A DNA stretch of 51,643 nucleotides from NCBI GenBank assembly GCA_030148915.1, contig JASBSN010000024.1:1-51643 (forward strand), given 5' to 3'. The DNA comes from Thiogranum sp. (GTDB taxonomy: Bacteria > Pseudomonadota > Gammaproteobacteria > DSM-19610). How positions within the stretch are numbered: the stretch's first letter is position 1; every line of letters starts with the position of its first letter. Made by a program: the position numbers and the translations under genes. Under the pieces are notes generated by a model. The model worked only from the letters and a program-made list of their open reading frames with translations, was not told the DNA's origin and did no database searches. Shown in pieces: positions 3,981-48,834 of this stretch.

Positions 3981-4343
3981 TCATGGCTCGTCTGGCGCCT
4001 CGACACTGACACAGAGGCGTTGCGCGCGCACACTCACGTTCACCGCACTCAGTGACTGACCGACACACGGCCCCGCTATGCACAAGCCGTCTTCGATTCT
4101 GAACAAGGCGGCATGGGTGGCGCACTGAATCAAGTCGCCCTCCAGGTTCAGAAACCGGTTCGGCACCCAGTCGAGCGGCCCACCGGTGTGCGGACAACAG
4201 TTACGGTAGGCGAAAACTCCCGCGCCGGTGCGCACGACAAAAATATTATCGCGCAACGCACTGGCAGATAGATCGAAGCCGCGGCTGCTGCCTTCGGCCA
4301 GCGTCTCCAGGCGGCAAAGTTCGATGATCTGTGGCGGCATCAT
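3981..4343 (-). CDS. Rieske [2Fe-2S] protein
   Basis: A single-domain Rieske ferredoxin of about 120 residues. The cluster ligands are C50-P-H52 (NCCPHTGGPLDW) and C74-A-T-H77 (IQCATHAALFRIEDG), matching CxH...CxxH. The following GLCIAGPCVGQSL is the usual end of the cluster-binding loop. The ATG at 4343 is chosen; a TTG at 4352 is also in frame. It begins 10 bases after the stop of the cyclic-nucleotide/rhodanese fusion gene and is almost certainly co-transcribed with it, which suggests a redox or sulfur-linked role. There is no oxygenase domain; its electron-transfer partner is unknown. Confidence 0.9.
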   Translation of the reverse strand: MMPPQIIELCRLETLAEGSSRGFDLSASALRDNIFVVRTGAGVFAYRNCCPHTGGPLDWVPNRFLNLEGDLIQCATHAALFRIEDGLCIAGPCVGQSLSAVNVSVRAQRLCVSVEAPDEP

Positions 4344-4353
4344 CCCATACAAT

Positions 4354-7300
4354 TTACTCTTTCACGACGCGAAAGCCCAGATTATCCAGACGGGTGCCGG
4401 TTTCACGGGCATCGCGGCTGGTGCTGCGGATACTCGCCGACGGACTGTTATAAGCGCCACCGCGCACCACCCGGCGGCTGCAGTCCCCGTCACCGACCGC
4501 GCTACCGTCGGCGGGCGCCCCGCTGTAGTCCGCCTGAAAGCAGTCCTCTACCCACTCCATGACATTCCCCGCCATGTCGTACAGTCGAAATGCGTTGGCC
4601 GCAAAACTGCCTGTCGGGGCGGTCATCCTTGCGGACCATTCCGTGCCACAGTCAAAGCAATTTGCCTGCGCCACACCGACGGTGTTGCCCCATGCGAAGC
4701 GCGTGTCTGTGCCGGCGCGGGCGGCGAACTCCCATTGCGCCTCGCTGGGCAGACGGTAACGGCCGCCGGTCTGCTCCGACAACCAACGGGTATAGGCCTG
4801 TGCATCTTGCCAACTGACATTGATCACCGGGCGCTCGCCGCGCCCCCAGCCATTGTCGTTAGGCAAGGAGCGACCGCTGGCGCGCGCAAAACGGTCATAC
4901 TCGGCGAAGGTGATTTCATGCGTACTGATAGCGAAGCGGGGCAACTCGACGCGATGTCGTGGACGCTCGTCGAAATTGGCCGAACTGGCGCCGCTGCCCA
5001 TGGCGAAGGCCGCGGCTTGAAACTCCACCAGCGTCGGCGCGCGGCCACCGTCGGCCAGCGGCTGACTGAACAGACGCAAGCTCTGGGCTTTACGGGCGAC
5101 CGGTGGCGCGCTTTCCCCAGCCGTTGCAGCGCGCTCGGTCTTCGCCGGCGCCGCGGCATCGTTAGCGGACGCGGTGTTCGCCGGCGAGACTGTTGGCGGA
5201 TTCGACAACGACGAACCTCCCTTGACAAAGCCGGGAAGGTGCATCGCCGAGGTATCCCGCTCGGCGTCCATGTTCGGCGGCGCACGTTGGACGCTCGCCT
5301 GTTGACCCGCCTCTGGCAAACCCGGCGATGGTAACGGCACGCGCTTGTCGGCACCTGCGGAGGCGGTGGGCGCTGAGGACCGTTGCGTGGCCGATGAGGG
5401 CGCACCGCTATGTTGTCCCTTGGCCCCTGGCGCCATGAGCCACCAAGTGCCGCCCCCGGCAACAGCCGCACCCAGGACTATCCCCAGCAGCAGCCGGCCG
5501 AAGCCGCCGCTAGCGGCGACGGCCGGTGGCGAGAAAGTCTGCACAGCGGCCTCACGATCATACTCCGCCTGATGCTCAGTACCGGCCTCATCAGGGCTCA
5601 CATCGTCCGGCCTGTTACGGGCATATTCCGCACTCGTTGCGCCCGCAGTCTGGGGAGGGTCATTATCCAAAGAAGGGATGTCCGCGACCGACACGCCGAC
5701 GGTTTCAGCCGCCGTTAACGCGGACTGCAGACGTGTGACCTCAGCTTCCAGTCGGAGATTTTTTTCCTCGGTCTGCGATCGCAGCCGCACCGCCACATCG
5801 ACGTTCTGTTGTGCCTGCGCCAGCTGTTCGCGCAACGCGCTGTCGGCGCCGGCACCACCGGCTTGCATATCGACCAGACCACGCGTGACCTCGGCTTCGG
5901 CGCGCAGCTGATCGAGCGCCTGTTGACTGTGCAGCTGCTGATCCTGAGCCGCATCGCGCTCCTGCTCGAGCTCCTGCTGGCGCTGCCGGGCCGCATCCCG
6001 CTCCTGCTCGAGCTGCCGCTCCCGCTGGCGAGCGGCATCGCGCTCCTCGCGCAGTGCCTGCAGCTGTTCTGCGCCCGCATCGTGAGCCGCGCTGGCCGAC
6101 TGGGCGCGCTCCACGGCCAGGCGCAATTCTTCCAGCTCCTGCCTCTCCACGGTCAACTGTTCTTGCGCACGGTTACGCTCATCGAGCGCCTCGGCGAGCT
6201 CCTCGCGCAGCTTCTGGCGAGCCTGTTCCTCGGCGTCCAGGCGTGTGCTCATTTCCTGATTGGCTGTCTGGTTGGCCTCTAGAAGTTGTTCCTCGGCCTG
6301 GCGGGCGCTGTCCTGCGCCTGACGCAATTGCAGTTCGAGCCGGTCGGCCTCGGCACGGGCGTCATCCAGATGCGAACTACGCTCGCCGAGCTTCATTTCC
6401 AACTCTTCGCGCGCGCGGAACTCTTCGTGCAACTTGATCTGCGCGGCTTCCAGTTCCGCAGCCAGATTCGAATCGGCGCCGCCTGCGGCTTCTTTCAGCT
6501 GCTTTCTCAGACGGTAAAGGTCGCTGTCGTGATCGTGCCGTTCCTGCTCGAGCTTGCGCTCGGCCTGGCGCAACGACTCCATCACACGGCTGTGCTCGCG
6601 CTTGAGGTTCTCGGTTTCTGTCTGTGCCCTACTCGTCGCCTGGCGTGTGCTGTGCAAATCCGACTGATGCTCTTTGGCCAGCGCGGCGAGTTGCTCTTGC
6701 AGCGCGCCCGTCTGAGCTGCGCGCTCTTCTGTCAGCGCTACGGCGGCGGCCAACTCGTCCTCCAGCGCGGCAATGCGCGCAGTCGCCTCGGCGAACTGCT
6801 GCTGCCATTGATCGCCACGCTCCTGTTCGTGCTCCCCAAGCTCCTGCAGCCGCTCCTGCAGCGCCTGCTCGCGGGCGCCGGCCTGCGCCAGCTCCTGTTG
6901 CAGCCGGGCGTGCTCGGCTTGCTGCTCCTGATCCCGGTGCTGTTGCTGGCGCAGCGTTTCCTGGAGTTCCTCGAGGCGCAGGTTGGCATTTTGCAGGTCG
7001 CTTTCAATTTGCTCCTGGCGTTGCCCGGAATCTTGCGCCTGGGTTTCTAATTGCGAGCGCTGCGCCTGCGCGCTTTGCGCCAGCGCGGCGGCCGCGGCCA
7101 ATTGATCTTCCAGCTCAGCGCGCTGCTGCGCGGCCTCATCAAGGCGCTGGCGCAGGTTATCGGCCTCGATCTGCCCAGCGGCGAGCGCCTGCTGCCGTTC
7201 ATCCAGGGCCTGTTGCAGAGCTTGCGCCGCTGCCTCATGCTTATCTGCGTGGTTATCGATTTGCTCCTTAACCGTTTTCAGCTCACCCTGGGCTTTATGC

Positions 7301-8823
7301 AGATCACGGCTCATAGCGTCGCGTTCGCCGGCCACCGCGCTGGTACGCTGTCCGAGCTGCTGATAATCCGCGCGCAGTCGATTCAGTTCCTCCTCCAGCG
7401 CGTGCAACTGTTTGTCGCGTTGCTGCAGCCCGGCATTGAGCTGCTCGCGCTCCTCGTTCAGCTGCCGCTGAGCCTCTGCCAGCTGACTCTGCAACGACTG
7501 GCTTTGCTGCGCGGCGCCGCCTGACAGTTGCGTCAACTGCGCTTCGAGATCGACCAGGCTCGCCTGCAGCCGCGCGACTTCCTGCTGCAAACTCTGCCGC
7601 TCGCTCTCAGCGCTGGCAAGTTTGTCGATCAGTTCGCTGTCCGGCTCGCCCGCGTGCTCCCGGTCCGGACTATCCTCGTGTAGGCCGCCGTTTGAACCAC
7701 CTTCAGCGTCGGGCGGCGGCGCGTCGGCATCGTGTATCGATCCGTCGCGCGCCGATGCGTCCGGCGACGAAAGTGACTCCGCGGGCACCTCCCTGAGGCC
7801 GTTTTTAAGGGTGTATACGCTGAAGCCCCGCTGGCTGAGCACAAAAGCGCCCGCCGCGCTACGTCGTCCGGTATCGCAACAGACGATATAGTCCGTGTTC
7901 TTATCCAGCTCAGCGCACTGCTCACGCAGCGCCGACAACGGCAGATTCAGACTGTCACGGACAGCCTGATTTTCAAATTCGCCCGGCAGGCGCACATCCA
8001 GCCAGCGCGCGCCGCCGGCCGCCAGTTCCTGCGCTTTGTCGTAATCGACCTCGTGAACCAGGGGCGCACGCAGCAGTTCGTTGAAATTGTCCTGCGACAA
8101 GCGCATCAGCGAGCCGTCGGTGACCATCATCACCGAGGCATTACGCTTGGTACCGGACACCAACGCTTCCTCGCCAAAGCAGGCACCCTCTCCCAGTTCG
8201 GCCAACAGCACTTCCTTGCTGCGCGGCGAGGCTTTGCGGGTGACAGCCAGGCGACCGGCTTTAACAATGTAAAAATAATCGCCCTCGTCCCCCTGGCGCA
8301 GGATCACGTCCCCGGCCGCGGCACTGACCGCCTCGAGGCGCATCAGCAGTTGGTGGATATTGGCCGGCGGCAGCCGCAGAAATGCCTCTGACTGCAGCAT
8401 CCGCGTCATCCAGTCGCCGCCGTCCTGAGTATCGATTTCGACGACATCGTAGCCGGCCGACTCGTCCCAGGTCAGCAGCACATCCAACAGGCTGGAGTCG
8501 ACCCGCGCCACGCTGACCTTGCCCTTGGCCCGCGCACCCAGATGCCGTGGCTGTTTGTGCGCCAGCGGATGCCTGGCCTGCTCGGAACCGGCGACCACGG
8601 CATCGACAACGGTGCGTCCGTCATCGACGAACTCCAGCAAACCTTCGAGGAGGTAGACCGTCTGATTATCGCGATCACCGGCTTTGAAGACGTAGGACCC
8701 CGAGCGGATCTCTTCAATAACGGCTTTTCTGGAGATTTCGTCAATGTGCGTTGCGGATAACGCGTTAATCGGAACAAGATCGCGTAACACTTTCTTATCA
8801 ATTAGTTTTTTTGCCGCTCCCAT
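4354..8823 (-). CDS. cNMP-binding x2 / rhodanese / coiled coil / TM / FGE-like fusion protein
   Basis: A 1489-residue fusion. A weak cyclic-nucleotide-binding fold occupies about 15-115. A clear one lies at 145-255, with the phosphate cassette FGEEAL...RNAS. A rhodanese domain at about 260-345 has active loop C316-DTGRRS. A very long Gln/Glu/Arg-rich coiled coil spans about 395-1040. One transmembrane helix lies near 1107-1131 (GRLLLGIVLGAAVAGG). The C-terminal domain (about 1264-1489) is of the formylglycine-generating-enzyme/sulfatase-modifying fold (VEFQAAAFAMGSG, RYRLPSEAQWEFAARAG, NVMEWVED, NLGFRVV). The two FGE cysteines expected just after RVVRGGAY are absent (NSPSAS there), so formylglycine synthesis is unlikely. 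The N-terminal part should be cytoplasmic and the FGE-like domain periplasmic. It is co-transcribed with the Rieske gene. Its role is unknown; sensing a nucleotide or sulfur signal across the membrane is a guess. Confidence 0.9.
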   Translation of the reverse strand: MGAAKKLIDKKVLRDLVPINALSATHIDEISRKAVIEEIRSGSYVFKAGDRDNQTVYLLEGLLEFVDDGRTVVDAVVAGSEQARHPLAHKQPRHLGARAKGKVSVARVDSSLLDVLLTWDESAGYDVVEIDTQDGGDWMTRMLQSEAFLRLPPANIHQLLMRLEAVSAAAGDVILRQGDEGDYFYIVKAGRLAVTRKASPRSKEVLLAELGEGACFGEEALVSGTKRNASVMMVTDGSLMRLSQDNFNELLRAPLVHEVDYDKAQELAAGGARWLDVRLPGEFENQAVRDSLNLPLSALREQCAELDKNTDYIVCCDTGRRSAAGAFVLSQRGFSVYTLKNGLREVPAESLSSPDASARDGSIHDADAPPPDAEGGSNGGLHEDSPDREHAGEPDSELIDKLASAESERQSLQQEVARLQASLVDLEAQLTQLSGGAAQQSQSLQSQLAEAQRQLNEEREQLNAGLQQRDKQLHALEEELNRLRADYQQLGQRTSAVAGERDAMSRDLHKAQGELKTVKEQIDNHADKHEAAAQALQQALDERQQALAAGQIEADNLRQRLDEAAQQRAELEDQLAAAAALAQSAQAQRSQLETQAQDSGQRQEQIESDLQNANLRLEELQETLRQQQHRDQEQQAEHARLQQELAQAGAREQALQERLQELGEHEQERGDQWQQQFAEATARIAALEDELAAAVALTEERAAQTGALQEQLAALAKEHQSDLHSTRQATSRAQTETENLKREHSRVMESLRQAERKLEQERHDHDSDLYRLRKQLKEAAGGADSNLAAELEAAQIKLHEEFRAREELEMKLGERSSHLDDARAEADRLELQLRQAQDSARQAEEQLLEANQTANQEMSTRLDAEEQARQKLREELAEALDERNRAQEQLTVERQELEELRLAVERAQSASAAHDAGAEQLQALREERDAARQRERQLEQERDAARQRQQELEQERDAAQDQQLHSQQALDQLRAEAEVTRGLVDMQAGGAGADSALREQLAQAQQNVDVAVRLRSQTEEKNLRLEAEVTRLQSALTAAETVGVSVADIPSLDNDPPQTAGATSAEYARNRPDDVSPDEAGTEHQAEYDREAAVQTFSPPAVAASGGFGRLLLGIVLGAAVAGGGTWWLMAPGAKGQHSGAPSSATQRSSAPTASAGADKRVPLPSPGLPEAGQQASVQRAPPNMDAERDTSAMHLPGFVKGGSSLSNPPTVSPANTASANDAAAPAKTERAATAGESAPPVARKAQSLRLFSQPLADGGRAPTLVEFQAAAFAMGSGASSANFDERPRHRVELPRFAISTHEITFAEYDRFARASGRSLPNDNGWGRGERPVINVSWQDAQAYTRWLSEQTGGRYRLPSEAQWEFAARAGTDTRFAWGNTVGVAQANCFDCGTEWSARMTAPTGSFAANAFRLYDMAGNVMEWVEDCFQADYSGAPADGSAVGDGDCSRRVVRGGAYNSPSASIRSTSRDARETGTRLDNLGFRVVKE

Positions 8824-9282: not shown

Positions 9283-9648
9283 ATGGCCGTAAAGAAAAAG
9301 ACAGCCAAGAAAACCGCCAAAAAGAAGGTCGCAGCAAAGGCGGTTAAGAAGCCCACCACAAAAGCCGAAACCTACACCTACATCGCGGATAAAACCGGCC
9401 TGACTAAAAAAGACGTCGGCGCCGTATTCGATACGCTCGGCGCACTCGTCAAGCGCGATCTGCGCCGCACCGGCCCTGGTGTCTACACCGTACCCGGCCT
9501 GATGAAAATCAAAGTTGTGCGTAAACCCGCCACCAAAGCACGCAAAGGCGTGAACCCGTTCACCGGCGAACCCATGACCTTCAAGGCCAAACCGGCCCGC
9601 AATGTGGTCAAGGTGCTGGCACTGAAAGCACTGAAAGATATGGTTTAA
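9283..9648 (+). CDS. HU-family DNA-binding protein with lysine-rich N-terminal tail
   Basis: 121 residues after a good AAGGAG site. Residues 1-28 are a histone-H1-like tail of Lys/Ala repeats (AVKKKTAKKTAKKK, then VAAKAVKKPTTK). The rest is a divergent HU/IHF fold: YIADKTGLTKKDVGAVFDTL is the dimer helix pair, GPGVYTVPGLMKIKVV the strand region and NPFTGEPMTFKAKPARNVVK the DNA-clasping arm and C-terminal helix. HU proteins bend and compact DNA; a Lys-rich tail should add non-specific DNA binding. A strong terminator follows 90 bases downstream, so the gene is monocistronic. Confidence 0.9.
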   Translation: MAVKKKTAKKTAKKKVAAKAVKKPTTKAETYTYIADKTGLTKKDVGAVFDTLGALVKRDLRRTGPGVYTVPGLMKIKVVRKPATKARKGVNPFTGEPMTFKAKPARNVVKVLALKALKDMV

Positions 9649-9737: not shown

Positions 9738-9766
9738 AAAAGGCAGCCCTGTGGCTGCCTTTTTTA
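9738..9766. terminator. Rho-independent terminator, HU gene and TerB gene
   Basis: A 10-base-pair stem (AAAGGCAGCC, loop CTGT, GGCTGCCTTT) continues into T's to 9765. It ends the HU transcript. The stop codon of the convergent TerB-like gene lies on its edge, and the A-run on the left gives a T-tract on the minus strand too, so it can work in both directions. Confidence 0.85.
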
Positions 9767-10216
9767 TTCGCTCTCCTGCACCCGATGCTTGGCCTGGATA
9801 AAATCACGGTGCGGGACATACATTAGATCGGCGATCTTACGCACCAGCGCTTCTTCATAGGGATCGAGGTGCCCGTCGGCGTAGGCCACCTGCCAGAGCA
9901 TCTCGACCACCTGCACCTTCTGCTGAGCCGTAAAGCGCTCGTTGATCAGCGCCGTAAACTGGTACAAAGAGACAGCGTTGTGCGCTTCGTGATCGGCAAT
10001 CGCCGCCAATTCACGGGATTCTTCATCGCTGATATCAAAACAGGTGCACAACGCCGTTTCCAGCGCCTGGCGTTCCTGCGGATGTTCCTCGTGATCAGCG
10101 CGCAACATTTCGAACATCAGCGCCGCAGTGGCCAGCTGCAGGCCGCGCTCATCCGGCCCCGCCGCCTGATCGGCGCTGACCCGCGTGCGAAAGAATTCCT
10201 GGATGGCGCTGATCAT
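9764..10216 (-). CDS. TerB-family (tellurite-resistance B-like) protein
   Basis: 150 residues. The start is the ATG at 10216, which overlaps the S8 protease stop (ATGA); a longer in-frame opening upstream codes for an Arg-rich non-protein-like stretch and is rejected. The sequence is all-helical with the acidic metal-binding pattern of TerB/DUF533 proteins: ALMFEMLRADHEEHPQERQ and LWQVAYADGHLDPYEEALVR (YADGxxxxxE). TerB-like domains are thought to act at the inner membrane surface; substrate and role are unsettled. It is translationally coupled to the protease and is the last gene of the gspA-gspB operon. Confidence 0.88.
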   Translation of the reverse strand: MISAIQEFFRTRVSADQAAGPDERGLQLATAALMFEMLRADHEEHPQERQALETALCTCFDISDEESRELAAIADHEAHNAVSLYQFTALINERFTAQQKVQVVEMLWQVAYADGHLDPYEEALVRKIADLMYVPHRDFIQAKHRVQESE

Positions 10217-11826
10217 GAGCGGGACCGCCGTAGCGGCGAGCGCGCCAGCCACCACAGACCGAGCAAAAGCATGAACAGCGCCGGGTCGAAACGTGACGCA
10301 TGCGTTGTCGCCAGCGCACAACCACCGCCGCCACCGCCGCTGCCGGCGCCGCTGTCGGTACTGACGCGACTGCCCAGCACGGCCGGCGGGTCGGCGGCAC
10401 CGGCCAGGGCGGCGGCGGCATCCACGACCCCGGTTCCGCATCGCCCGGGCCCACAGCTGGCATCCGGAAAGGCGCGCGCCGTAGCCTTGATAAGATCCTC
10501 CACCAGTACCGGTGTGAGGGCGCTGTTTACCGCCAGCATCAGGGAGACCACGCCCGAAACCTGGGCGGCGCTGAAACTGGTGCCCTGGATCACCGCCAGG
10601 GCGTCGTCCCCGGCAGTGGTGAGGCCGAAATTCGATAATGTCAGAATACCGTTGGGCGGATTCAGCGGATCCGAGGGGTTCGGCGTATCGCCACCCGGCG
10701 CAGCGACATCCACGGCGTCGCCGGCGTTCGCATAACCGGCTTTGCGCCCGTCGCGGGCGATGGCGCCGACTACAATCACATTGCGACAGTTCGCCGGGCT
10801 GTAATTGCGCACATCCCCGCCTTCGTTGCCTGCCGATACGACCACGACCGCCCCTCGGCTAACCGCCGTGTCTATAGCCGACTGCTCCACGGAGCTACAG
10901 GGGCCATCGCCGCTCAGACTGAGGTTGATGACCCGTGCCGGGTTGGGATTGAGCTGCGCAACACCCGCCACTTCGATGCCGACCGCCCAGCGAATGGCAT
11001 CGGCGACATCCGACAGCAGGCCGCCGCACGTGCCCAGCACCCGCAGCGGCAGCACCTGCGCGCGGAAATTGATCCCGGCGATATCGCGTGCATTATCGGA
11101 CTCGGCGGCGATCACCCCGGCGATGGACAGGCCGTGCCAGGAACTGCGGTCTTTGCCAGAATCATTGGCATAACAGTCGTCTCCCGGTTCTGCCCAGTCG
11201 CCCGGGTCGGTGGGATCGCCGTCTCTGCCGGGAACGGCGTCGTGGTCCGCGGACGTATCGCTGACAAAATCGTAGCCGGGCAGGATGCGCGCCTGATTGA
11301 GGTCCGGGTGCGGGATAATGCCCGTATCCACTACGGCGATCACCACCCCCGCCGTCCCGGTCGAGCGGTCCCAACCGTTTTGCATATTAATGCCGGCAGT
11401 GTCTTCGAACAAATGCCACTGACCGGGATCATTTACCGCATCTGCACCGGGCAGGTACTGAGGGTCGTTCGGAACCAGCGCCGGGGAAAAGCGCTTGTTC
11501 GGAACCACCGCGGCGATATCGGGTCGAGCCTCGAGCTGCTGCGCCAGGTGCTCGGCCTCGCTCAGACTGAGACTTTCCGGCAGCTGTACCACCGCGCTCC
11601 GGCTCTCGAAGCGGCGCAGGAATTTCAAGCCGCGCCCGTCGGGCAGGGCGATATCCGGCAGCATCTGGTCGGCGCGCACCGATTGTATATGTACCTCACC
11701 GCTGCTCTTGAACTGAATGATCAATTGTTGGGTGCGTTGACGCGCCGTGGCCTGATCTGCTGCGGCGCCCGCCGATACCACGGCGCAGAGCAGACAAACG
11801 ACCAACGGGTTATGAAAGCTGGACAT
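10213..11826 (-). CDS. S8 subtilisin-like protease with Gly-rich C-terminal sorting tail
   Basis: 537 residues. A signal peptide covers about 1-24 (VVCLLCAVVSAGAAA) and a propeptide about 25-120. The catalytic triad is D167 (VVDTGI), H231 (SWHGLSIAG) and S417 (GTSFSAAQVSG), with the oxyanion Asn in SAGNEGG. The C-terminus has a run of glycines with a cysteine (GSGGGGGGCAL), the segment RFDPALFMLLLGLWWLA and a basic tail RSPLRRSRS. This is the layout of GlyGly-CTERM/JDVT-CTERM tails, which are processed by rhombosortase-type or CPBP-type intramembrane proteases. Its position after gspA-gspB suggests a type II secretion substrate, then surface display. It lies 18 bases downstream of gspB and overlaps the TerB gene. 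Confidence 0.92.
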   Translation of the reverse strand: MSSFHNPLVVCLLCAVVSAGAAADQATARQRTQQLIIQFKSSGEVHIQSVRADQMLPDIALPDGRGLKFLRRFESRSAVVQLPESLSLSEAEHLAQQLEARPDIAAVVPNKRFSPALVPNDPQYLPGADAVNDPGQWHLFEDTAGINMQNGWDRSTGTAGVVIAVVDTGIIPHPDLNQARILPGYDFVSDTSADHDAVPGRDGDPTDPGDWAEPGDDCYANDSGKDRSSWHGLSIAGVIAAESDNARDIAGINFRAQVLPLRVLGTCGGLLSDVADAIRWAVGIEVAGVAQLNPNPARVINLSLSGDGPCSSVEQSAIDTAVSRGAVVVVSAGNEGGDVRNYSPANCRNVIVVGAIARDGRKAGYANAGDAVDVAAPGGDTPNPSDPLNPPNGILTLSNFGLTTAGDDALAVIQGTSFSAAQVSGVVSLMLAVNSALTPVLVEDLIKATARAFPDASCGPGRCGTGVVDAAAALAGAADPPAVLGSRVSTDSGAGSGGGGGGCALATTHASRFDPALFMLLLGLWWLARSPLRRSRS

Positions 11827-11844: not shown

Positions 11845-12567
11845 TTACCGGGACAGCATACGGAAACGCTGCCCGTGGAAGGCCAAAATGACACCTCCAG
11901 GGGTTATGGCGTCCACCCGCGGGCCTTCCTGAAGCGTATCGCCAATGTGGTATTTACGCATATTGATCATGACGAAGCGTTCATCCGGCTGATCGCTGTA
12001 GACATGGACGTCGAGATGCAGACTGCCGTTTATCTCGCTCAACAGTTGGGCCGATATCTGCGGCCAGACCGGCAGGTTGTCGTGGCTGCGCGCAGCCGCG
12101 GCAGACACGGCCGGTGGCGCTACCGAAACCTTACCCCTGATTCCAGACTCAGCGCCAGTGACAGCTTCGACCCCGCCCGCATCGGCAGGTTCAGGCAACG
12201 CGGGCAGCGGGCGCAAGACCTTCGGTGGCGGCGCTGGTGCTGCCGGGCGGCTCGCCTCGGGAAGCGGCGCTGGAGGCGGGGATAGAGGAACGCTCGGCGG
12301 CGCTACGGCGGGTCGTGTGGCGGGCGGCGTCGAGGAAGCGATGGCGGGTTGCTCGCGCGCGGCATCCGGTGTCGGTGTCGGCTCCGCTGTTGGCCATAGC
12401 AGAATCACCAGCAGGAGGGCATTGACCAACAGCACGGCCAACAGAATCCACAGCCAGCGACCGGCGGCGTTGCGTGGTGGCAGCTCCTGACCACTGCCAA
12501 GACCCGGTACCCGGCCGATGGCACGTTCATTTTCCGCTTTCTTCAGAGCATCGAGAATGTAAGACAT
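11845..12567 (-). CDS. gspB: Type II secretion assembly protein GspB
   Basis: 240 residues. The N-terminus MSYILDALKKAENERA is the hallmark of the GspB/ExeB/PulB family. One transmembrane helix lies at about 38-58 (LWILLAVLLVNALLLVILLW). A long Pro/Ala-rich periplasmic linker follows, and the C-terminal globular domain reads LHLDVHVYSDQPDERFVMIN...YHIGDTLQEGP. With GspA it helps the secretin GspD insert through peptidoglycan. It lies 12 bases after gspA; the secretion machine genes are elsewhere. Confidence 0.95.
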   Translation of the reverse strand: MSYILDALKKAENERAIGRVPGLGSGQELPPRNAAGRWLWILLAVLLVNALLLVILLWPTAEPTPTPDAAREQPAIASSTPPATRPAVAPPSVPLSPPPAPLPEASRPAAPAPPPKVLRPLPALPEPADAGGVEAVTGAESGIRGKVSVAPPAVSAAAARSHDNLPVWPQISAQLLSEINGSLHLDVHVYSDQPDERFVMINMRKYHIGDTLQEGPRVDAITPGGVILAFHGQRFRMLSR

Positions 12568-12579
12568 AAATCGGCTCGC

Positions 12580-14334
12580 TTAACCGTTAACCACACCCAG
12601 TCGCGGCAGCGACGACCGCCCTTCCAGGTTATTCAGATGAATCAGCGTATGGGGGCCGGCGACACCGTCGGTCTGCAGGCCCTGGCTGCGCTGGAATTCC
12701 TCCACGACCTCTTTCAGCCCGTCATCGTAATAGGCCGGGTCGGAGGAGATCGCAGCGACTCCGGTTACCTTCTGCAATCGTTGCCGCAACCAGCTGACGT
12801 CGCTGCCGCGATCGCCGGGGCGCAACACGGCGCTGCCTTTGGGCGGCGTTTTCCACAGTATGCGGTAGTGCCCCAACCAGGCCTGCTTGAGCTCAGCGAC
12901 CGACACTTCCTGCTGGGTGCCCGCGACTTGAATGCGCGCTTGCGCGCCCAATAACTCCAGGAGTACCACCGGAACCTGACGGCCTTCGGGGCTGATGAGA
13001 AACACAATGGCCGGACGGTCCAGTTGGGTAAGCACCGTCCAGCTGCCCGCGCCTTGCAGACAGCGCAGACCCACGCCGGGCGCCTGCGCGCAGGCCTGCT
13101 CTTCGCCCACCACGTTAGCCTCCACGCCCCACAGCCGATAGAGCGCCGCCCAGGCCTGCGCCGCCGCGCCGGGGCCGCTTTGCACCAGAGCGCGTTGCAG
13201 ATCGGTCGCACGCAGAGCCTGCGCCAGTGCTTGTGCCTGCAGGGCGGCGGTCTGCGGCGTCCCGTCGTCCCCCGTCCGGGGGGTATCTTCCAGCGCCTCC
13301 GGAACCGTTTCCGGCTCCGGCTCGGCAGAAGCCCCCGGGGGCGGTCGATCCGGACTGCGCTCTTGCGCGGGCAGGGCCAGAGAGTGCGCTGGCGCGACCG
13401 GGTGCCGGGCCGGCAAGTCCGGCGCATAGCCCCGCCCCACCAGCAAATAGACGCCCACACCCAAGCCCAGCAACAGCGCCACGCCAGCCGGCCAGCGCCA
13501 ACCCAAGCCCGGCGCCTGCAGCCCTTCTTCGGGCAACACTTCGCTGGCGGCCTTACGCACAATCGGTACGTCGATCGCCTGCTTGCCTTCGACAAAGGCC
13601 CCCAGCATGGCCCGGTCGCACAGCACGTTGATCAGGCGCGGCACCCCCGAGGACAGGCTCTGCACCAAATCGATGGCGGCGTCACTGAAAAGCGCTTCCG
13701 TGGCGCCGCACACCTGAAGGCGATGGCGGATATAGGCCGCCGTCTCTTCGCGACTGATGGGTTCGAGGTGATAGCGCGCGGTAATCCGCTGAGACAACTG
13801 GCGCAGCTCTTCCCGGGCCAGCAGGAGACGCAGCTCCGGCTGGCCTACGAGGATGATCTGCAGGAGTTTCTCGCGGGTGGTTTCCAGATTGGTCAGCAGA
13901 CGCACCTGCTCCAACGCCTCTGCGCTGAGGTTCTGCGCTTCGTCAATCATCAGCACCGTGCGCCGGCCCCGTGCGTGGCTGTCCAGCAGATAGGCGCTGA
14001 GGGCGTCAGTGAGGACCTTGATACTGGTCGTGTCTCTGGCGTAGGCGACGTTCAGCTCATCGCAGAGGCTGGCCAGTAACTCCTGGGCGTTGACGCGGGG
14101 GTTCAAAATCAGCGCCAGGTCGACGTGGGCCGGCAACTGCTCCAGCAGGCATCGGCAGATCGTGGTTTTACCCGTACCCACTTCACCGGTCAGCTGCACG
14201 AAGCCGCCGCCCTCACCGACGCCATACAGCAGATGCGCCAGCGCTTCCCGGTGCTGACGACTCATATAAAGGAAACGCGGATCGGGCGCGATCGAGAACG
14301 GCCGCTCTGTCAGTCCAAAATGTTTCTGATACAT
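12580..14334 (-). CDS. gspA: Type II secretion ATPase GspA/ExeA
   Basis: 584 residues from the ATG at 14334 (MYQKHFGLTERPFSIAPDPR, the family's canonical N-terminus); a longer in-frame upstream opening lacks support. AAA+ ATPase: Walker A G50-EVGTGKT, Walker B VLMIDEAQ (D131, E132). A membrane segment lies near 275-295 (GVALLLGLGVGVYLLV). The periplasmic part has a C39-like fold (about 390-480) and a C-terminal peptidoglycan-binding repeat (RPGDRGSDVSWLRQRL...VVEEFQRSQGLQTDG). It binds peptidoglycan and works with GspB in secretin assembly. First gene of a four-gene leftward operon. Confidence 0.95.
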   Translation of the reverse strand: MYQKHFGLTERPFSIAPDPRFLYMSRQHREALAHLLYGVGEGGGFVQLTGEVGTGKTTICRCLLEQLPAHVDLALILNPRVNAQELLASLCDELNVAYARDTTSIKVLTDALSAYLLDSHARGRRTVLMIDEAQNLSAEALEQVRLLTNLETTREKLLQIILVGQPELRLLLAREELRQLSQRITARYHLEPISREETAAYIRHRLQVCGATEALFSDAAIDLVQSLSSGVPRLINVLCDRAMLGAFVEGKQAIDVPIVRKAASEVLPEEGLQAPGLGWRWPAGVALLLGLGVGVYLLVGRGYAPDLPARHPVAPAHSLALPAQERSPDRPPPGASAEPEPETVPEALEDTPRTGDDGTPQTAALQAQALAQALRATDLQRALVQSGPGAAAQAWAALYRLWGVEANVVGEEQACAQAPGVGLRCLQGAGSWTVLTQLDRPAIVFLISPEGRQVPVVLLELLGAQARIQVAGTQQEVSVAELKQAWLGHYRILWKTPPKGSAVLRPGDRGSDVSWLRQRLQKVTGVAAISSDPAYYDDGLKEVVEEFQRSQGLQTDGVAGPHTLIHLNNLEGRSSLPRLGVVNG

Positions 14335-14486
14335 AGGTAGTTTTGCCGCCCAACCGGCGAAACCCCTATTATGCCTTTTCCCATCTGCGCCGTCCTCAAC
14401 TGCCCCGCAGCTCAGGGGAAATAAGCGCACACGCCAGTCCGCCTGCTCTCCAAGCGCGGTGGGGCTTGCTTATTTATTAGAGTTTG

Positions 14487-26046: not shown

Positions 26047-28711
26047 GCTTCAATGAGGCCGAGGCATTACGCCTCGGATAACTAGACGCTGACACGGCCC
26101 CTACATTGGTAACAGACGGTGCTTCAATGAGGCCGAGGCATTACGCCTCGGATAACGGGGACCTGGAGCGCTACAGTCGAGACGCCTAGCACGCTTCAAT
26201 GAGGCCGAGGCATTACGCCTCGGATAACTACGCAGAAGGAAGCCGAGGAAGTCGAAGCCAGCAAGCTTCAATGAGGCCGAGGCATTACGCCTCGGATAAC
26301 GTGGAGTTGAGTTAGTAGCTGATACCGGAAGATCGATGCTTCAATGAGGCCGAGGCATTACGCCTCGGATAACTCGCCTAGCGACATCACCCCGGATAAG
26401 TGTTCATCGGCTTCAATGAGGCCGAGGCATTACGCCTCGGATAACCAAGAATCACGCGCATCGTACCTATCGCGCGGCTACTGCTTCAATGAGGCCGAGG
26501 CATTACGCCTCGGATAACTTGGTGGCGAAGAGAGCTAAGAAGAAGGGCTAAGTTGGCTTCAATGAGGCCGAGGCATTACGCCTCGGATAACACAGCCGCG
26601 CCACGGTCTTCAGGCTCGCGTTGATTCGCTTCAATGAGGCCGAGGCATTACGCCTCGGATAACTGAATGCTGCTCAGCCTGCTTATGGATGCCGCTGCAG
26701 CTTCAATGAGGCCGAGGCATTACGCCTCGGATAACGCAGATAGTACAGCAACTGGTTGTCAGCGGGGCCGAGCTTCAATGAGGCCGAGGCATTACGCCTC
26801 GGATAACATTCCCGGAAAGCATTTTAGGATAGTAATACCTGTTGCTTCAATGAGGCCGAGGCATTACGCCTCGGATAACGTCTGACTCAAAGGCCCTATC
26901 CGCCTGTGCCCACCGCTGCTTCAATGAGGCCAAGGCATTACGCCTCGGATAACGACCACCAGGGTTTCCCGTCGCGTGAAACTGAGTAGGCTTCAATGAG
27001 GCCGAGGCATTACGCCTCGGATAACAGGAGGACGGATATGAATATTCTGCACCTTCCTCCGCGCTTCAATGAGGCCGAGGCATTACGCCTCGGATAACTG
27101 GTCATAAACCGCAGGGTCCAAATCGGACACTTTTTGCTTCAATGAGGCCGAGGCATTACGCCTCGGATAACCTGCAACCAGTTAGGGATGAGTTCGGTGG
27201 GTACCTACGCTTCAATGAGGCCGAGGCATTACGCCTCGGATAACCGCATTGACAGAAAAATCATACAGCTGGTTGCGCCAGCTTCAATGAGGCCGAGGCA
27301 TTACGCCTCGGATAACCTGAAAATCGCCCCAATTTTTTGGACTTAATTTCACAGGCTTCAATGAGGCCGAGGCATTACGCCTCGGATAACAGGTTGATAC
27401 GGGCACGAGTTAACCACATGCGGCGCATGGCTTCAATGAGGCCGAGGCATTACGCCTCGGATAACGAGGAAGGTTTAGGGAGGGTGAGTACTGGCAGCGG
27501 ACGGCTTCAATGAGGCCGAGGCATTACGCCTCGGATAACAATCTGAGACTCATCAGACCAAAATGAGATGTCCCGCTTCAATGAGGCCGAGGCATTACGC
27601 CTCGGATAACCCCCGCTGGATACTTGGAAGGGTAATGAGTACACCCGCTTCAATGAGGCCGAGGCATTACGCCTCGGATAACCGAAGTCGCTCCAGTTGC
27701 ACAGAGCAGCGGGTTGTCACCGCTTCAATGAGGCCGAGGCATTACGCCTCGGATAACGTCTCACCCTTGTTGTCGTTGACGGTGGGGTCATACAGCTTCA
27801 ATGAGGCCGAGGCATTACGCCTCGGATAACGTTATTATTTCCATTGACATGTGCGCATCCTATTATAAGCTTCAATGAGGCCGAGGCATTACGCCTCGGA
27901 TAACCTCCCCACCAGTCTTTTTGGGGTAATTTACTAACTAAAGCTTCAATGAGGCCGAGGCATTACGCCTCGGATAACTGCATCGCTCTCCAACGACTGA
28001 TATAACGTTGACGATGCTTCAATGAGGCCGAGGCATTACGCCTCGGATAACTTCATCTCGCGGGCCCGGAGTGCAGGCAGGCTGTTTTGCTTCAATGAGG
28101 CCGAGGCATTACGCCTCGGATAACATGGGCCAAGTGGGTCTATAGTGCCAGATCCACCGTAAGGCTTCAATGAGGCCGAGGCATTACGCCTCGGATAACC
28201 AAAGGCAGGAAGGTCATAATCCGCGTCCTGAGTAAGCTTCAATGAGGCCGAGGCATTACGCCTCGGATAACATCACACCGCTGGTCAGCAAGTTTTTGTG
28301 GTTAGCGTGGCTTCAATGAGGCCGAGGCATTACGCCTCGGATAACATACAACCCGAACCTCGGCAAACTGCTGCGCGTTGGCCGCTTCAATGAGGCCGAG
28401 GCATTACGCCTCGGATAACGATGAATTCAAATAATAGTGAGCATGAACAATTTTCGCTTCAATGAGGCCGAGGCATTACGCCTCGGATAACCTGTTCCGC
28501 CGCGCTTTCTACCTGGTGTTTACGCTGCCGCTTCAATGAGGCCGAGGCATTACGCCTCGGATAACCGCTCACCGGTCTAACGATGTCGAGTCGAGTCTCC
28601 TTGCTTCAATGAGGCCGAGGCATTACGCCTCGGATAACCGCCACCCTCCCAGGCGTCGACAATTTCATCAACCGTGCTTCAATGAGGCCGAGGCATTACG
28701 CCTCGGATAAC
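26047..28711 (-). CRISPR. CRISPR array, subtype I-G, 37 repeats and 36 spacers
   Basis: Thirty-seven 36-base repeats (plus-strand form begins GCTTCAATGAGG and ends CGGATAAC) with spacers of 35-39 bases. Each repeat has a 7-base-pair stem, CCGAGGC-ATTAC-GCCTCGG. All copies are identical by eye except the one at 26918, with G to A at repeat position 15 (26932), which breaks one stem pair. The form ending ATTGAAGC is read on the minus strand, the direction of the cas genes, and places the leader at 28712-28934 next to cas2. The predicted crRNA 5' handle is ATTGAAGC, made by the Cas6 part of Csb2. Both end repeats are intact. Spacers share no evident sequence with each other or with the window. 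Confidence 0.98.
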
Positions 28712-29230: not shown

Positions 29231-30937
29231 CTACCGAGTGATAAATTCAGGATAATGGTCGATATCGTTGAGCAGAAACCGCCCCAACAACCGTGCCTGC
29301 ACTTCCAGTATGCGGCGGTAACTGATCCGGTAGCCGAACAACGGGTGTGTAACTTCCTGGCTTAAACGCCGCTCGATCACACCGATGAAACGTTTTCTGC
29401 CTTCGCTGGTCAGTGTCACGCCACCACCTGCGGATATGAAGTCGCCGGGGCGGACTTCACCGTTGTTGATGGCGGAAATCACGGCCGATTCGGCGATCAA
29501 AGGTCTGAACGGTTCCATCAGATCGAGCGCCAATGCCGGACGTCCGTAGCGCGGCTGATGGTAGAACCCCCGGTACGGATCAAAACCCACGGCACTGAGC
29601 GTAACCGCCCAGGTGCGTACCAACACCGTATAGGCATAGGAGAGCAACGCGTTCACCGCATCCGGCGGTGGTCTGCGCTGACGCCGTGCAAAATCGAACA
29701 CAAAGCTTTGCGTATCGCTGTCGTGCTTGATCAGATTGCCGAATGCGCCGAAATAACGTGCCGCGGCCGCGCCCTCTATGCCCAGTAGAGTCTGTTGGTT
29801 TTCAGCGCGGGCGACACTTCTGGCATCGCCCTTGAGCGCATCCAGCAGGGGCTGCACATCTTCCTCGCCCCGCCAATTACGCCGCAGCAGCGTGCGGCAA
29901 TTCACGATTTTGTTGCGCACCAGGGTTTTCGCCAGCTGCAAACACAACGCACTGTCGAAACTGGTGTGGTACTGCGCGGTGCGCAGCTCAACGTTTTTAT
30001 GCCCCAGACCCGTGCTGTGCCCCAGAAACCAGCCACCGTAGGAATGCCAGGTTATCGGGATTTCGCGTCGCATCAGTTCGTGCAGACAAGGTGTGGTGAC
30101 ATAGACATTCCCCATGAGCACCAGTTGCGATACGTCCAGGAGGCGCACCGCGGTCACCTTCTTGTCGTCGATCGAGACTTCCAGGGTTTCACCCTTCTTG
30201 GCCACTTTGGCGTGGTTGGCCTGCACATAGAGCGGCAGAGCTTCCGCGCGGCCTACGGCGAGCGGGCGCGGCGAAGTGTCGGCTTTGCGCAGAAAATTGA
30301 TTTCATCCGGCAGGCAGATGCCGACCAGTGAACAACGCGGGCATTTGGGGCTGTCGTCCAGTGGCGCGGGCATCCGCCCGCCGGCGGCGATCAGGCGCAG
30401 ACCATTGACGGCCGAGAGGGTGAGATTACGTAATTCTTCATCAAACTCGACACGCACGCGCTCCTTGGAAGCCGCAAAATACAGAATCCCTTCGCCGCAG
30501 TGATAACCGTGTTCTTCCAGCAGCATGCCCTGCACGCACAGTTGGATTCGCTCCGGGTCATAGGCGCCCTTGGCCACATGCGGGCGCTTGCCGCGCTTGT
30601 AGTCGACTGGCGTGACTTTGCCGTCGTCGCCCTCGACCAGATCCAACTTGGCGATCAGGCCCAGGCGATTGGAAGACAACTCAATGGAGCGGGCATGAAA
30701 TTTTTCAAAATCATCCGTTTGTTCAGGTAATTTGCCAACCTGCCGGTCGACCCGCCGATGCACGTGGCGGCCTTCCACGGTATCACCCGATTCCGCCCAC
30801 TCGCCCTGCACCCACTCCAGGTACGCCAGCCGCGGGCAGTACCCGAACTCATTGACCATGCGCGCGGGCAACAATGGCGAATCGCCCGAGAGCTCCGGAA
30901 ATGGCAGCGGCAGTTCCTGTTGGCTGTTGTGGTCCAT
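29231..30937 (-). CDS. cas4-cas1: Cas4-Cas1 fusion protein
   Basis: 568 residues. The Cas4 half (about 1-215) has C34 ([12 protein letters not shown]) and the cysteine cluster [11 protein letters not shown] near 200-210 for an iron-sulfur cluster, plus nuclease motifs [12 protein letters not shown] and [10 protein letters not shown]. The Cas1 half (about 225-568) has the metal ligands E ([11 protein letters not shown], about 385), H ([10 protein letters not shown]) and D/E (LDLMEPFRP). This fusion is typical of subtype I-G, as in Geobacter. It trims and integrates new spacers with Cas2. A 660-base gap containing antitoxin and PIN remnants on the other strand separates it from csb2. Confidence 0.97.
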
Positions 30938-31059
30938 GGCATCCTCGTCTTAATGCCCTTTACCTGCTATGTCGGTATCGGCCGGGATTTTCTTAGCTTT
31001 TTGTCCATCCCTGGCGTTAACCGACGCCCGCCCCCTTCAAAAGGACCATAGGACCCGAC

Positions 31060-31212
31060 TTGAAAGACCAGCACCGCCGGCGCTTTGGCCGGCTCGTGCA
31101 GGAAATCCGTGAACAGGCCAGAAAACAGGGAACGGACAAGCTCACACTTGAAGGCATACATGCTGAAATCGAGGCGGCCAGGCACGAGCGCCGACTTGAA
31201 AGCGGGGGTTGA
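31060..31212 (+). CDS. Antitoxin of a PIN-type toxin-antitoxin pair
   Basis: 50 residues from a TTG at 31060 after AGGA: MKDQHRRRFGRLVQEIREQA, then RKQGTDKLTLEGIHAEIEAA, then RHERRLESGG. The ...GxDKLTxExIxAEIxAxRxER pattern is the usual C-terminus of small antitoxins paired with PIN ribonucleases. The frame is intact and its stop overlaps the start of the adjacent PIN gene, the normal arrangement of such pairs. It lies on the plus strand, inside the minus-strand cas operon. Too short for firm assignment on its own; the neighbour supports it. Confidence 0.6.
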   Translation: MKDQHRRRFGRLVQEIREQARKQGTDKLTLEGIHAEIEAARHERRLESGG

Positions 31213-31597
31213 CACCAACGTATTGGTTTCAGGTCTTCTGTCAGGACACTCACCTCTTGCATGGATTATTCAGGCGATTGGAACCAGAAAAATTGAACCG
31301 GTTTTCTGTGGAGCGATGCCCTGGGAATATTTGCACGTGCTTACACGGGCACGTTTCCGTGCTTAGGCATGAAACAGTCGCAGCGCTGTTTGAACAGCTT
31401 GTCTTGTGGGGAATTCATATGGAGCTCGATCCCTCGGTGATAAGTTTCGAGCCGCCTAACGAACCGGATAGCCTATTTTTTCTCACAGCGATTGCGGCAG
31501 TGGTGTATTGATTTCAGAGAATCTGGAGCATTCACCTAACCAGAGACCGTTAGCTGTACTGTCGCCATCAGCGCTGGTGCAGACGTCGTGGACCCAT
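31196..31597 (+). pseudogene. PIN-domain toxin, broken by at least two frameshifts
   Basis: Three pieces in three frames rebuild a VapC-like PIN ribonuclease. Piece 1 (31196-31366) reads MKAGVDTNVLVSGLLSG...PWEYLHVLTRARFRA, with the first catalytic Asp in VDTNVLVSG. Piece 2 (ends 31511) continues HETVAALFEQLVLWGIHMEL and EPPNEPDSLFFLTAIAA, the usual PDDxxFLxxA segment. Piece 3 (from about 31505) reads VLISENLEHSPNQRPLAVLS, matching the family's xTGNLxHFP...SPxEFL end. Shifts near 31360 and 31505 interrupt it, so no active toxin is expected. The end is approximate and abuts the csb2 stop. Confidence 0.7.
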
Positions 31598-36804
<5,207 letters not shown>

Positions 36805-36818
<14 letters not shown>

Positions 36819-37314
36819 CGTCTTCCAGCCTCATCCGCAGATGTTCAATATCTATCCTGTCCTGTTCCCTGCCTGCCGCTTCTTTCATCTTGATCAAGGT
36901 CGGGATACTGACAAACCGCACTGGCATGGAGCCATATAGGGGCTTGATCAGCGCACTGTCATATTCCTTGTCGAACGGAAACGGCTCATAGACGAATATA
37001 TCGATGGATGTCTCACGATGGCCGTCGCTCCAGAGTTGCAGGACCTGCATGCCCTTGTCCCGTATCCATCTCTCGCGAGTGGCCGGATCGGCAAATTGCT
37101 CCACAGTCACCGGCGCCAATGGCCGGTAGCCCAACGTTGCCAGGGCGGTGAGGGCCTGTCTGATATTGTCCGGAATTAACTGGATAACGAAATCGGCGTC
37201 TTTCGTGAAACGCAAATAGCCGTGTGCATTCACCGCCAGTCCGCCGGCGACCAGGTAGCGGACGCCGGCCTCGTTCAGCACGCGAACGATGGCTTCAAAG
37301 CTGGTCAGTTTCAT
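36805..37314 (-). CDS. Nucleotidyltransferase-fold protein embedded in the cas operon
   Basis: 169 residues. The N-terminal half has the polymerase-beta-like nucleotidyltransferase pattern YLVAGGLAVNAHGYLRFTKD with catalytic acids D39 and D41 (KDADFVI), and a third carboxylate D105 in TSIDIFVYEP. This resembles the MNT/AbiEii/DUF6036 group, and all three metal ligands appear intact. No HEPN partner is next to it. It sits between cas3 and csx17: its ATG overlaps the cas3 stop (ATGA) and its last 14 bases overlap csx17, so it must be transcribed and is probably translated with the interference genes. It is not part of the standard I-G gene set. Possible roles are a linked toxin/antitoxin or an RNA-modifying accessory; none is shown. 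Confidence 0.9.
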
Positions 37315-43797: not shown

Positions 43798-44862
43798 TCA
43801 ATTGACGCGAGGGTCGAGCTCTCCGGAGGCATAGCGTTGGACCATGTCATCAAGGCTGAGCGGCTTGATTTTGGAGGCGTGTCCGGCACAACCGAAAGCT
43901 TCGTAGCGGGCCTTGCAGATGTCCTTCATGGCGGCAGTAGACGCTTTGAGGAACTTGCGCGGATCGAAGTTGGATTTGTTTTCCGCCAGGTGCTTGCGCA
44001 CGGCACCGGTGCTGGCCATGCGCAGGTCGGTATCGATGTTTACTTTGCGCACGCCGTGGCGGATACCTTCCTGGATTTCCTCGACCGGTACGCCATAGGT
44101 CTCACCCATATCGCCGCCGAAGCTGTTGATGATTTCCAGCCAGTCCTGCGGTACCGACGAGGAGCCATGCATCACCAGATGGGTGTTGGGAATGCGTGCG
44201 TGAATTTCCTTGATGCGGTTGATGGCCAGAATGTCGCCGGTCGGCGGACGGGTAAACTTGTAGGCGCCGTGGCTGGTGCCGATGGCGATCGCCAGCGCGT
44301 CCACACCGGTTTCCTTGACGAAATTGGCGGCTTCTTCCGGATCGGTCAGCAACTGATCCATGGACAACTTGCCTTCGGCGCCGTGACCGTCTTCCTCGCC
44401 CATTTCACCGGTTTCCAGCGAACCCAGGCAACCCAACTCGCCCTCAACAGACACACCACCGGCATGCGCCATCTCCACCACCCGGCGGGTGACATCGACG
44501 TTGTATTCGTAGGTGGCCGGGGTTTTCATGTCCGACATCAGCGAACCGTCCATCATTACCGAGCTGAACCCGGACTGGATCGAGCGCAGACACACCGCCG
44601 GTTCGGACCCATGATCCTGGTGCATGACGATGGGAATGTGCGGATACATTTCCGTGGCGGCAATAATCAGATGGCGCAGGAAGGGCTCGCCCGCGTAAGA
44701 GCGCGCACCCGCCGAGCCCTGCATGATGACCGGGCTGTCGGCCTCGTCGGCAGCCTGCATGATGGCATGCACCTGCTCCATGTTATTGACGTTGAAGGCC
44801 GGCATGCCGAATTCGTTCTCGGCGGCGTAGTCGAGCAGTTGACGCATGGATATCAGAGCCAT
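43798..44862 (-). CDS. fba: Class II fructose-bisphosphate aldolase (Calvin-cycle subtype)
   Basis: 354 residues after GAGGAG. Zinc enzyme: [20 protein letters not shown] gives the His and Asp ligands, then [32 protein letters not shown] and [13 protein letters not shown] for phosphate binding. The 350-residue form with [20 protein letters not shown] is that found in autotrophs (also called cbbA). It makes and cleaves fructose and sedoheptulose bisphosphates. Last gene of the tkt-gap-pgk-pyk-fba cluster. Confidence 0.96.
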
Positions 44863-44929
44863 GATGGTCTCCTCGGTATTTTCTATATAGGATAAACGAA
44901 AGTTGTGAAACGACTGTTAGTGCGGCGGC

Positions 44930-46375: not shown

Positions 46376-46454
46376 ATTCAGCCACTTCGCATCCATTATC
46401 ACTCAGCGGCAACGCAGACGGGGCGGGTGAAGGCCTCGCTGAATCGCCGGTTAT

Positions 46455-47633: not shown

Positions 47634-47767
47634 GCTAAAAACTCCAGATTGGTAGGCAAAGATTACGGCTAAACGCCAGGTTTACCGAGCATCTCCGGCA
47701 CCGGGCACGGACGGGCAAACGGGGCGGATTATGCAGATCCATAACCCACCCCGCCGCTCTGCGTCGT

Positions 47768-48775
<1,008 letters not shown>

Positions 48776-48834
48776 TTATCTCTCCGTCATTTTCTCTTAG
48801 GTAAGCTTGCAGTAATACGCACGCGTCGCCTTAC

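Follow-up and report, generated by a model that had tools for sequence, protein, structure and literature searches.

A single reading frame on the minus strand of the window, by which is meant the whole stretch of 51,643 nucleotides that was analysed, encodes a protein of 1489 residues in which two domains of the cyclic-nucleotide-binding type (cNBDs), a rhodanese, a long coiled coil, one transmembrane span and a domain with the fold of the formylglycine-generating enzyme (FGE) follow one another, and this order is retained in relatives. The design itself is undescribed in the literature searched, and its component domains belong to known families. The model proposed here, to which we give about an even chance, is that of an inner-membrane receptor or tether whose head is regulated by cAMP and carries a persulfide, a Rieske protein being its redox partner. 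The fusion gene, its domains and the adjoining Rieske gene are located as follows.

4354..8823, minus strand: fusion gene, 1489 aa, cNBD-cNBD-rhodanese-coiled coil-TM-FGE
8458..8754, minus strand: first cyclic-nucleotide-binding-type domain, residues ~24-122, with a non-canonical cassette loop and conserved Pro92-Arg93
8059..8412, minus strand: second cyclic-nucleotide-binding domain, residues ~138-255, cassette FGEEALVSGTKRNAS, Pfam 92.5 bits
7789..8046, minus strand: rhodanese domain, residues ~260-345, loop CDTGRRS, codon of Cys316 at 7876-7878
5734..7635, minus strand: long coiled coil, residues 397-1030 (634 residues), no proline
5437..5493, minus strand: single transmembrane span, residues ~1111-1129, mean hydropathy 1.73
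4360..5061, minus strand: FGE-fold domain, residues 1255-1488, FGE Cys pair absent, four other conserved Cys
3981..4343, minus strand: Rieske [2Fe-2S] ferredoxin-type protein, 120 aa, 10 bases past the fusion stop codon, Pfam 36.7 bits

The translation of the 4354-8823 frame runs through its 1489 residues without an internal stop, and Pfam matches above the respective cut-offs are found for cNMP_binding at residues 167-252 (92.5 bits), rhodanese at 265-345 (41.9 bits) and FGE-sulfatase at 1262-1488 (178.6 bits). Together with fold matches, hydropathy and the maintenance of the architecture in relatives, these matches bear out the domain order given in a preliminary description of this DNA. Its authors knew of no described protein with the full order, which is consistent with a search of the open-licence literature (domain combinations, PvdO-FGE, PP2C-FGE and Thiogranum-rhodanese), where no description of the fusion protein was found.

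The N-terminal head

The second cNBD scores 92.5 bits against PF00027, whose cut-off is 27.5, and its predicted model matches the fold of PKA and PKG with a Z of ~18 in a structure search; the cNBDs of these two kinases are also the best sequence and fold hits of the head among the matches listed. In an alignment of 91 head modules (N-modules), Glu218, Arg227, Asn228 and Ala229 are invariant in all 29 full-length proteins, and the first two of them, Glu218 and Arg227, which we take to be the Glu and Arg of the phosphate-cassette motif, are kept in 61 and 60, respectively, of the 62 other N-modules. The residue that follows the cassette Arg is Ala in PKA and Thr in PKG. Since Asn follows Arg227 in the fusion protein, the predicted ligand of this domain may differ from cAMP.

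The first domain scores 26.1 bits in a profile search of the genome, below the PF00027 cut-off of 27.5, and Pfam accordingly places a single cyclic-nucleotide stretch above cut-off in the window protein; two such stretches are found in 8/8 relatives that lack the FGE domain, as well as in the only full-architecture relative that was scanned (L153). Its AF2 block means are 91-98 for residues 11-110. The cassette loop of this domain (fusion residues 79-99, window 8527-8589) is non-standard yet conserved, with Pro92 present in 91/91 and Arg93 in 90/91 of the aligned N-modules, and because it keeps this signature of its own, the domain seems unlike a product of simple decay.

The rhodanese (PF00581, 41.9 bits against a cut-off of 22.2) has its active-loop cysteine, and the reading of an intact C316-DTGRRS loop, for which the conservation of the cysteine was to be checked, stands: Cys316 is found in 29/29 full-length proteins and in 58 of the 62 other N-modules, and Thr318, Gly319, Arg321 and Ser322 are kept in all 29 full-length proteins. 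The predicted head has a mean pLDDT of 90.1 and a pTM of 0.61, so that the folds of its domains are sure and their mutual arrangement is unsure. None of the structure and sequence matches listed for the head is a chain described as carrying both a cyclic-nucleotide domain and a rhodanese, and no account in which a cyclic nucleotide controls a rhodanese was found in the open-licence literature searched.

Other forms of the head were also seen. The window's genome contains a second N-module protein (L051; G000:C48 16870-17883), a 402-residue frame with 30% identity to the fusion head. At six other loci (L106, L109, L117, L118, L123 and L131), two long-tailed cNBD-cNBD-rhodanese paralogs are arranged head to head as a divergent pair, with a DUF520 gene nearby in 6/6 and VWA-CoxE or MoxR genes in 5/6.

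Co-occurrence with adenylate cyclases

The class was sampled evenly with 369 genomes, among them that of the window, and the N-module is present at E 1e-60 or better in 168. A cyclase match, either to class I (PF01295, E to 1e-20) or to class III (PF00211, E to 1e-8), is found in 165 of these 168 genomes, against 86 of the 201 genomes without the module, and class I alone in 97/168 against 9/201, counts that ignore relatedness and include the genome of the window and those of its kin. Of the genomes with the full architecture, which was found in at least 27, 26/27 have one or the other cyclase family, and class I occurs in 22/27, compared with 84/342 of the other genomes, while class III shows no association with it (18/27 vs 214/342). 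Three N-module genomes, G102, G225 and G258, have neither cyclase at the thresholds used, and G102 is one that carries the full fusion. In the window's genome, a class III cyclase was considered as the source of cAMP and none was found there; a class I adenylate cyclase match is present instead.

The Rieske gene and the gene neighbourhood

The Rieske protein encoded immediately downstream scores 36.7 bits against a Pfam cut-off of 20.3 and has the CxH and CxxH cluster ligands. Its linkage to the fusion, put forward from the window as a co-transcribed pair, extends to other genomes: a Rieske homolog starts no more than 1.2 kb downstream in 24 of the 28 full-architecture loci, and both ligand motifs are kept in 24/24. 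These counts come from a homolog search, as the ORF selection behind the clustering of neighbours misses some Rieske genes that overlap longer opposite frames. Among the remaining four loci, no Rieske gene was found near the fusion in L058, L059 and L066, where 3.5 kb of downstream sequence are available, or in L062, where 1.0 kb is available. None was found near the 51 N-module loci that lack the FGE domain, in 36 of which the gene is closed and followed by 1.2 kb or more of sequence; in G034, an FGE-less N-module gene does have a Rieske neighbour. A PfkB-type kinase gene commonly lies between the fusion and the Rieske gene (cluster 5, 16/80 loci; for instance L056, L060 and L061) and is missing in the window.

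Upstream of the fusion gene, four further genes of the window recur among the 80 loci examined.

9283..9648, plus strand: HU-type DNA-binding protein, divergent neighbour, Pfam 54.4 bits, cluster 2 in 25/80 loci
9764..10441, minus strand: TerB-family protein, Pfam 121.9 bits, cluster 1 in 27/80 loci
11845..12567, minus strand: GspB-like (T2SSB) protein, Pfam 67.9 bits, cluster 4 in 20/80 loci
12580..14430, minus strand: GspA/ExeA-like ATPase with a peptidoglycan-binding domain (Pfam), cluster 3 in 24/80 loci

The recurrence of GspA, GspB, TerB and HU genes may be plain inherited gene order. A role in anti-phage defence, Pycsar-type or other, was considered and set aside, as the fusion protein and two neighbours had no PADLOC match at E 0.001.

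Elsewhere in the window, at 26047-28711 and 29231-39749, a CRISPR array (CRISPR-DR16, 37 repeat matches) lies beside genes for a Cas4-Cas1 fusion and for a Cas3-like helicase whose HD part is C-terminal. Two large ORFs between them (31598-33262 and 34263-36818) have no Pfam match. Positions 43798-50820 hold consecutive genes for transketolase, GAPDH, phosphoglycerate kinase, pyruvate kinase and class II aldolase, an ordinary carbon-metabolism cluster.

The coiled coil and the membrane span

The region behind the rhodanese had been described as a coiled coil of roughly 650 residues, and 634 residues (397-1030) do form a proline-free stretch with heptad periodicity. In the window protein, for which this was computed, the power at 3.5 residues is 1843; shuffled sequences average 543 (sd 131; z 9.9), and 0 of 500 shuffles reached as high a value. 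A coiled coil rises by 0.15 nm per residue, and with this value a coil of ~630 residues would measure ~94 nm if fully extended. In an alignment with 15 homologs, coil residues ~480-505 and 970-1025 look far more conserved than the rest, and these stretches, around DYQQLGQRTSAVAGERD and LRAEAEVTRGLVDMQ, are possibly docking sites.

With a span taken as a 19-residue stretch of mean hydropathy above 1.6, exactly one span, and no further such stretch, is found in 29/29 proteins (28 full-length homologs and the window protein). Summed over the 29, the eight residues flanking the span contain 59 Lys or Arg before it and 15 after it; the count is higher before the span in 26/29, equal in three and higher after it in none. 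Hydropathy and charge thus agree with the transmembrane placement proposed earlier, the single span having a positive-inside pattern. Because of this charge pattern, and because its cysteines are fixed, as described below, the FGE domain is inferred to sit in the periplasm, a topology read from sequence features, with the coil and the head on the cytoplasmic side.

The distance between the rhodanese and the span varies from 597 to 1077 residues in the 29 proteins, and for that reason a tether is favoured over a precise or stiff mechanical transducer. The same variation would suit a different function, in which the protein is a scaffold or hub: the coil would place the head deep in the cytoplasm, the FGE domain would dock on the envelope, perhaps close to the machinery specified by the neighbouring GspA and GspB genes, and the cNBDs and the rhodanese would serve as docking surfaces and not as sensors. 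This reading also draws on the presence of GspA in 24/80 and GspB in 20/80 of the loci examined and on structure matches of the FGE fold to PorK/GldK, which are parts of a ring in another secretion system. The Gsp linkage, however, may merely reflect the inherited gene order mentioned above, and a pure scaffold would have no need of the binding- and active-site residues that are invariant in 29/29 full-length proteins and slightly laxer in the relatives lacking the FGE domain. We therefore regard the scaffold as unlikely, although it is the strongest of the competitors of the receptor model.

The FGE-fold domain

The C-terminal domain belongs to PF03781 (178.6 bits against a cut-off of 23.3) and also matches the fold; its model has a mean pLDDT of 80.1, with stretches below 50 at 139-167 and 218-226. 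Exactly four cysteines, in register, are present in this domain in 29/29 proteins, and none of them corresponds to the catalytic pair of FGE. The positions of what we take to be that pair, read against 6muj, are occupied by other residues in the window protein and in every aligned homolog (two overlapping alignments, of 15 and 27). The domain had been called non-catalytic, of which the absence of the pair is upheld; this absence is no proof that catalysis is lost, the closest solved structure being that of PvdO.

PvdO (5hha) is the nearest by sequence (8.5e-53) as well as by fold (TM 0.79), followed by active FGE, and the NCBIfam name of its family is 'dihydropyoverdine dehydrogenase'. It could consequently be argued that the fusion protein is a periplasmic oxidase or modifying enzyme of the PvdO type, acting without the FGE cysteine pair and regulated or anchored by its head. 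Against the NCBIfam equivalog model for PvdO, however, the domain scores 159.5 bits, where the cut-off is 500, the FGE catalytic pair is absent, and related FGE domains carried by phosphatase and kinase heads resemble receivers. An enzyme of this type is distinctly unlikely, more so than a scaffold.

The heads just mentioned come from nine other FGE proteins, picked by hand, eight of them from frames of 629-922 aa and the ninth being L050. Seven (L048 and L146-L151) begin with a PP2C phosphatase, and one (L152) has a Ser/Thr kinase and PEGA domains before a span and the FGE domain; in these eight, head and FGE domain are separated by a hydrophobic span (mean 2.0 to 2.9). No second Pfam domain is present in L050, which has a signal-peptide-like hydrophobic stretch at residue 8. 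We read the FGE domain, on the basis of these domain combinations, as a probable extracytoplasmic receiver to which signalling outputs of several kinds can be attached. The sensing role given to the fusion protein in the preliminary description gains support from the PP2C and kinase heads on 8/9 of these proteins and from the co-occurrence with cyclases, while the passage of a signal along the rod, nucleotide binding and persulfide chemistry are putative parts of it.

Proteins with the FGE fold are also known from diversity-generating retroelements, and 2y3c is among the structure-database matches of the domain. The reading of the fusion as the target of such an element was dropped, because no reverse transcriptase match was found in the window's genome.

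Distribution and origin of the full architecture

In the genus, 12/16 other genomes have both ends of the protein in one closed frame. The exceptions are G003, in which the start of the frame is missing, G005 and G010, in which the frame stops at contig edges, and G007, an 82% complete genome in which nothing beyond an N-module of 353 residues is seen. Of other members of the family, G017 and G018 have the full architecture, and in G019 it is cut by the contig end; in the relative G228, one internal stop breaks the frame. A scan of named genomes gave 124 loci, the best 80 of which were kept; 79 have an N-module frame, L128 being without an N-module row, and in 28 of these 79 the FGE domain follows in the same closed frame. 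The 80 loci are mostly from assemblies titled Thiogranum, Thiohalobacter, Ectothiorhodospiraceae or plainly Gammaproteobacteria or Proteobacteria, and the row nearest to the window is a Thiogranum assembly with 84% identity over 345 head columns. In the class sample, the N-module and the FGE domain share a contig and a frame length in at least 27/369 genomes. The same-genus, locus and class-sample sets overlap, and since some of the loci L056-L135 are the same contigs as loci of the G-series genomes (L056 and G004, for example), the L and G sets are not independent.

The large size of the gene, its rare domain order and the frames broken in some relatives (G003, G228) might suggest that two genes were misassembled or are read through by chance, a notion of negligible probability that is refuted by the closed frames in 12/16 same-genus genomes, 28/79 loci and at least 27/369 class genomes, three of which (G008, G140 and G150) consist of a single contig and have the full frame. 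The preliminary description had named such a misassembly, or the absence of the architecture in all relatives, as what would overturn it, and as the architecture is conserved in relatives, neither applies. Its reading as a whole holds for the domain order, the span, the Rieske linkage, the intact loop of the rhodanese and the missing cysteine pair of the FGE domain. The association with sulfur oxidisers fares worse: judged from the N-module alone, which is present in 168/369 class genomes, a distribution limited to these organisms is unlikely.

A single origin of the full architecture was considered and given up, since in a quick tree the state, full or not full, must change at least five times if rows truncated at contig ends are excluded, and 14 times if such rows are scored as not full; 13/89 rows run off their contig and have no architecture label, several long branches meet, and gain and loss are indistinguishable in it. 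Because the Rieske linkage is shared by distant members (L087, L096 and L099, for instance), the full architecture with its Rieske gene may be an old arrangement that has undergone losses.

The proposed model

The receptor model would have the protein anchored in the inner membrane by its single span, as receptor and tether at once, with the C-terminal FGE-fold domain in the periplasm, where it would bind a ligand or a structure of the envelope. The span would link this domain to a coiled coil of ~630 residues, presumably dimeric, which would bear the head, with its two cyclic-nucleotide-type domains and its rhodanese, in the cytoplasm. The second of these domains would bind a cyclic mononucleotide, most likely cAMP, and thereby control the rhodanese, whose Cys316 would carry a persulfide. 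The neighbouring Rieske ferredoxin may give or take electrons for the sulfur chemistry of the head. Whether the rod couples the two ends, and in which direction a signal would run, also belong to what the model supposes, as do the catalysis by the head and the partnership with the Rieske protein.

If the proposal holds, cAMP would act directly on persulfide chemistry, alongside its control of transcription, and several types of output would share the FGE-fold domain as their receiver in the periplasm. The head module is widespread, being found in 168/369 class genomes, yet control of a rhodanese by cyclic nucleotides is undescribed in the literature searched. A broader proposal, possible though doubtful, is that of a gammaproteobacterial class of envelope receptors that share a periplasmic FGE receiver, their outputs being a PP2C phosphatase, a Ser/Thr kinase or a cAMP-controlled persulfide rhodanese on a rod of ~90-150 nm. 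If this were true, the rhodanese kind, with its dedicated Rieske ferredoxin, would connect cAMP signalling directly with reactive sulfur and the envelope.

Comparison with known systems

The tandem cNBDs of PKA and PKG (e.g., 4z07 and 3pna) resemble those of the fusion protein in forming a pair whose second domain has the Gly-Glu and Arg of the cassette. In the fusion protein, by contrast, the conserved loop of the first domain is of another kind and Asn follows the cassette Arg; moreover, the cNBDs are joined to a rhodanese and not to a kinase, in a bacterial protein that is membrane tethered. The rhodaneses of CoA-persulfide/NADH persulfide reductases (8a56, 3icr and 3ntd) share the fold and are among the best matches listed, but the fusion chain has cyclic-nucleotide domains and no flavin reductase, and its linked redox protein is encoded by the Rieske gene.

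At the other end of the protein, the formylglycine-generating enzyme (SUMF1) is of the same fold family, PF03781, and differs in its two catalytic cysteines, which are missing in all 29 fusion proteins compared. PvdO (5hha) is the nearest FGE relative of solved structure, by sequence and fold, whereas the FGE domain of the fusion protein scores below the cut-off of the PvdO family and is connected, by way of a span, with a head in the cytoplasm.

Family 2 encapsulins (PMC8346489) have cyclic-nucleotide domains in Family 2B, for which regulation of a protein machine is proposed, and cysteine-desulfurase operons of Family 2A that are enriched in rhodanese genes. They offer a precedent for the proposed regulation of a machine by cyclic-nucleotide domains; the fusion protein differs from them in having no capsid domain and in carrying its domains in one chain with a membrane span.

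Similar in design are the PP2C-span-FGE proteins (L048 and L146-L151) and the kinase-span-PEGA-FGE protein (L152) from the same bacterial class, in which a signalling domain and a span precede a related, C-terminal FGE domain. Unlike the fusion protein, they have a phosphatase or kinase head and a length of 624-919 aa, without the long coil.
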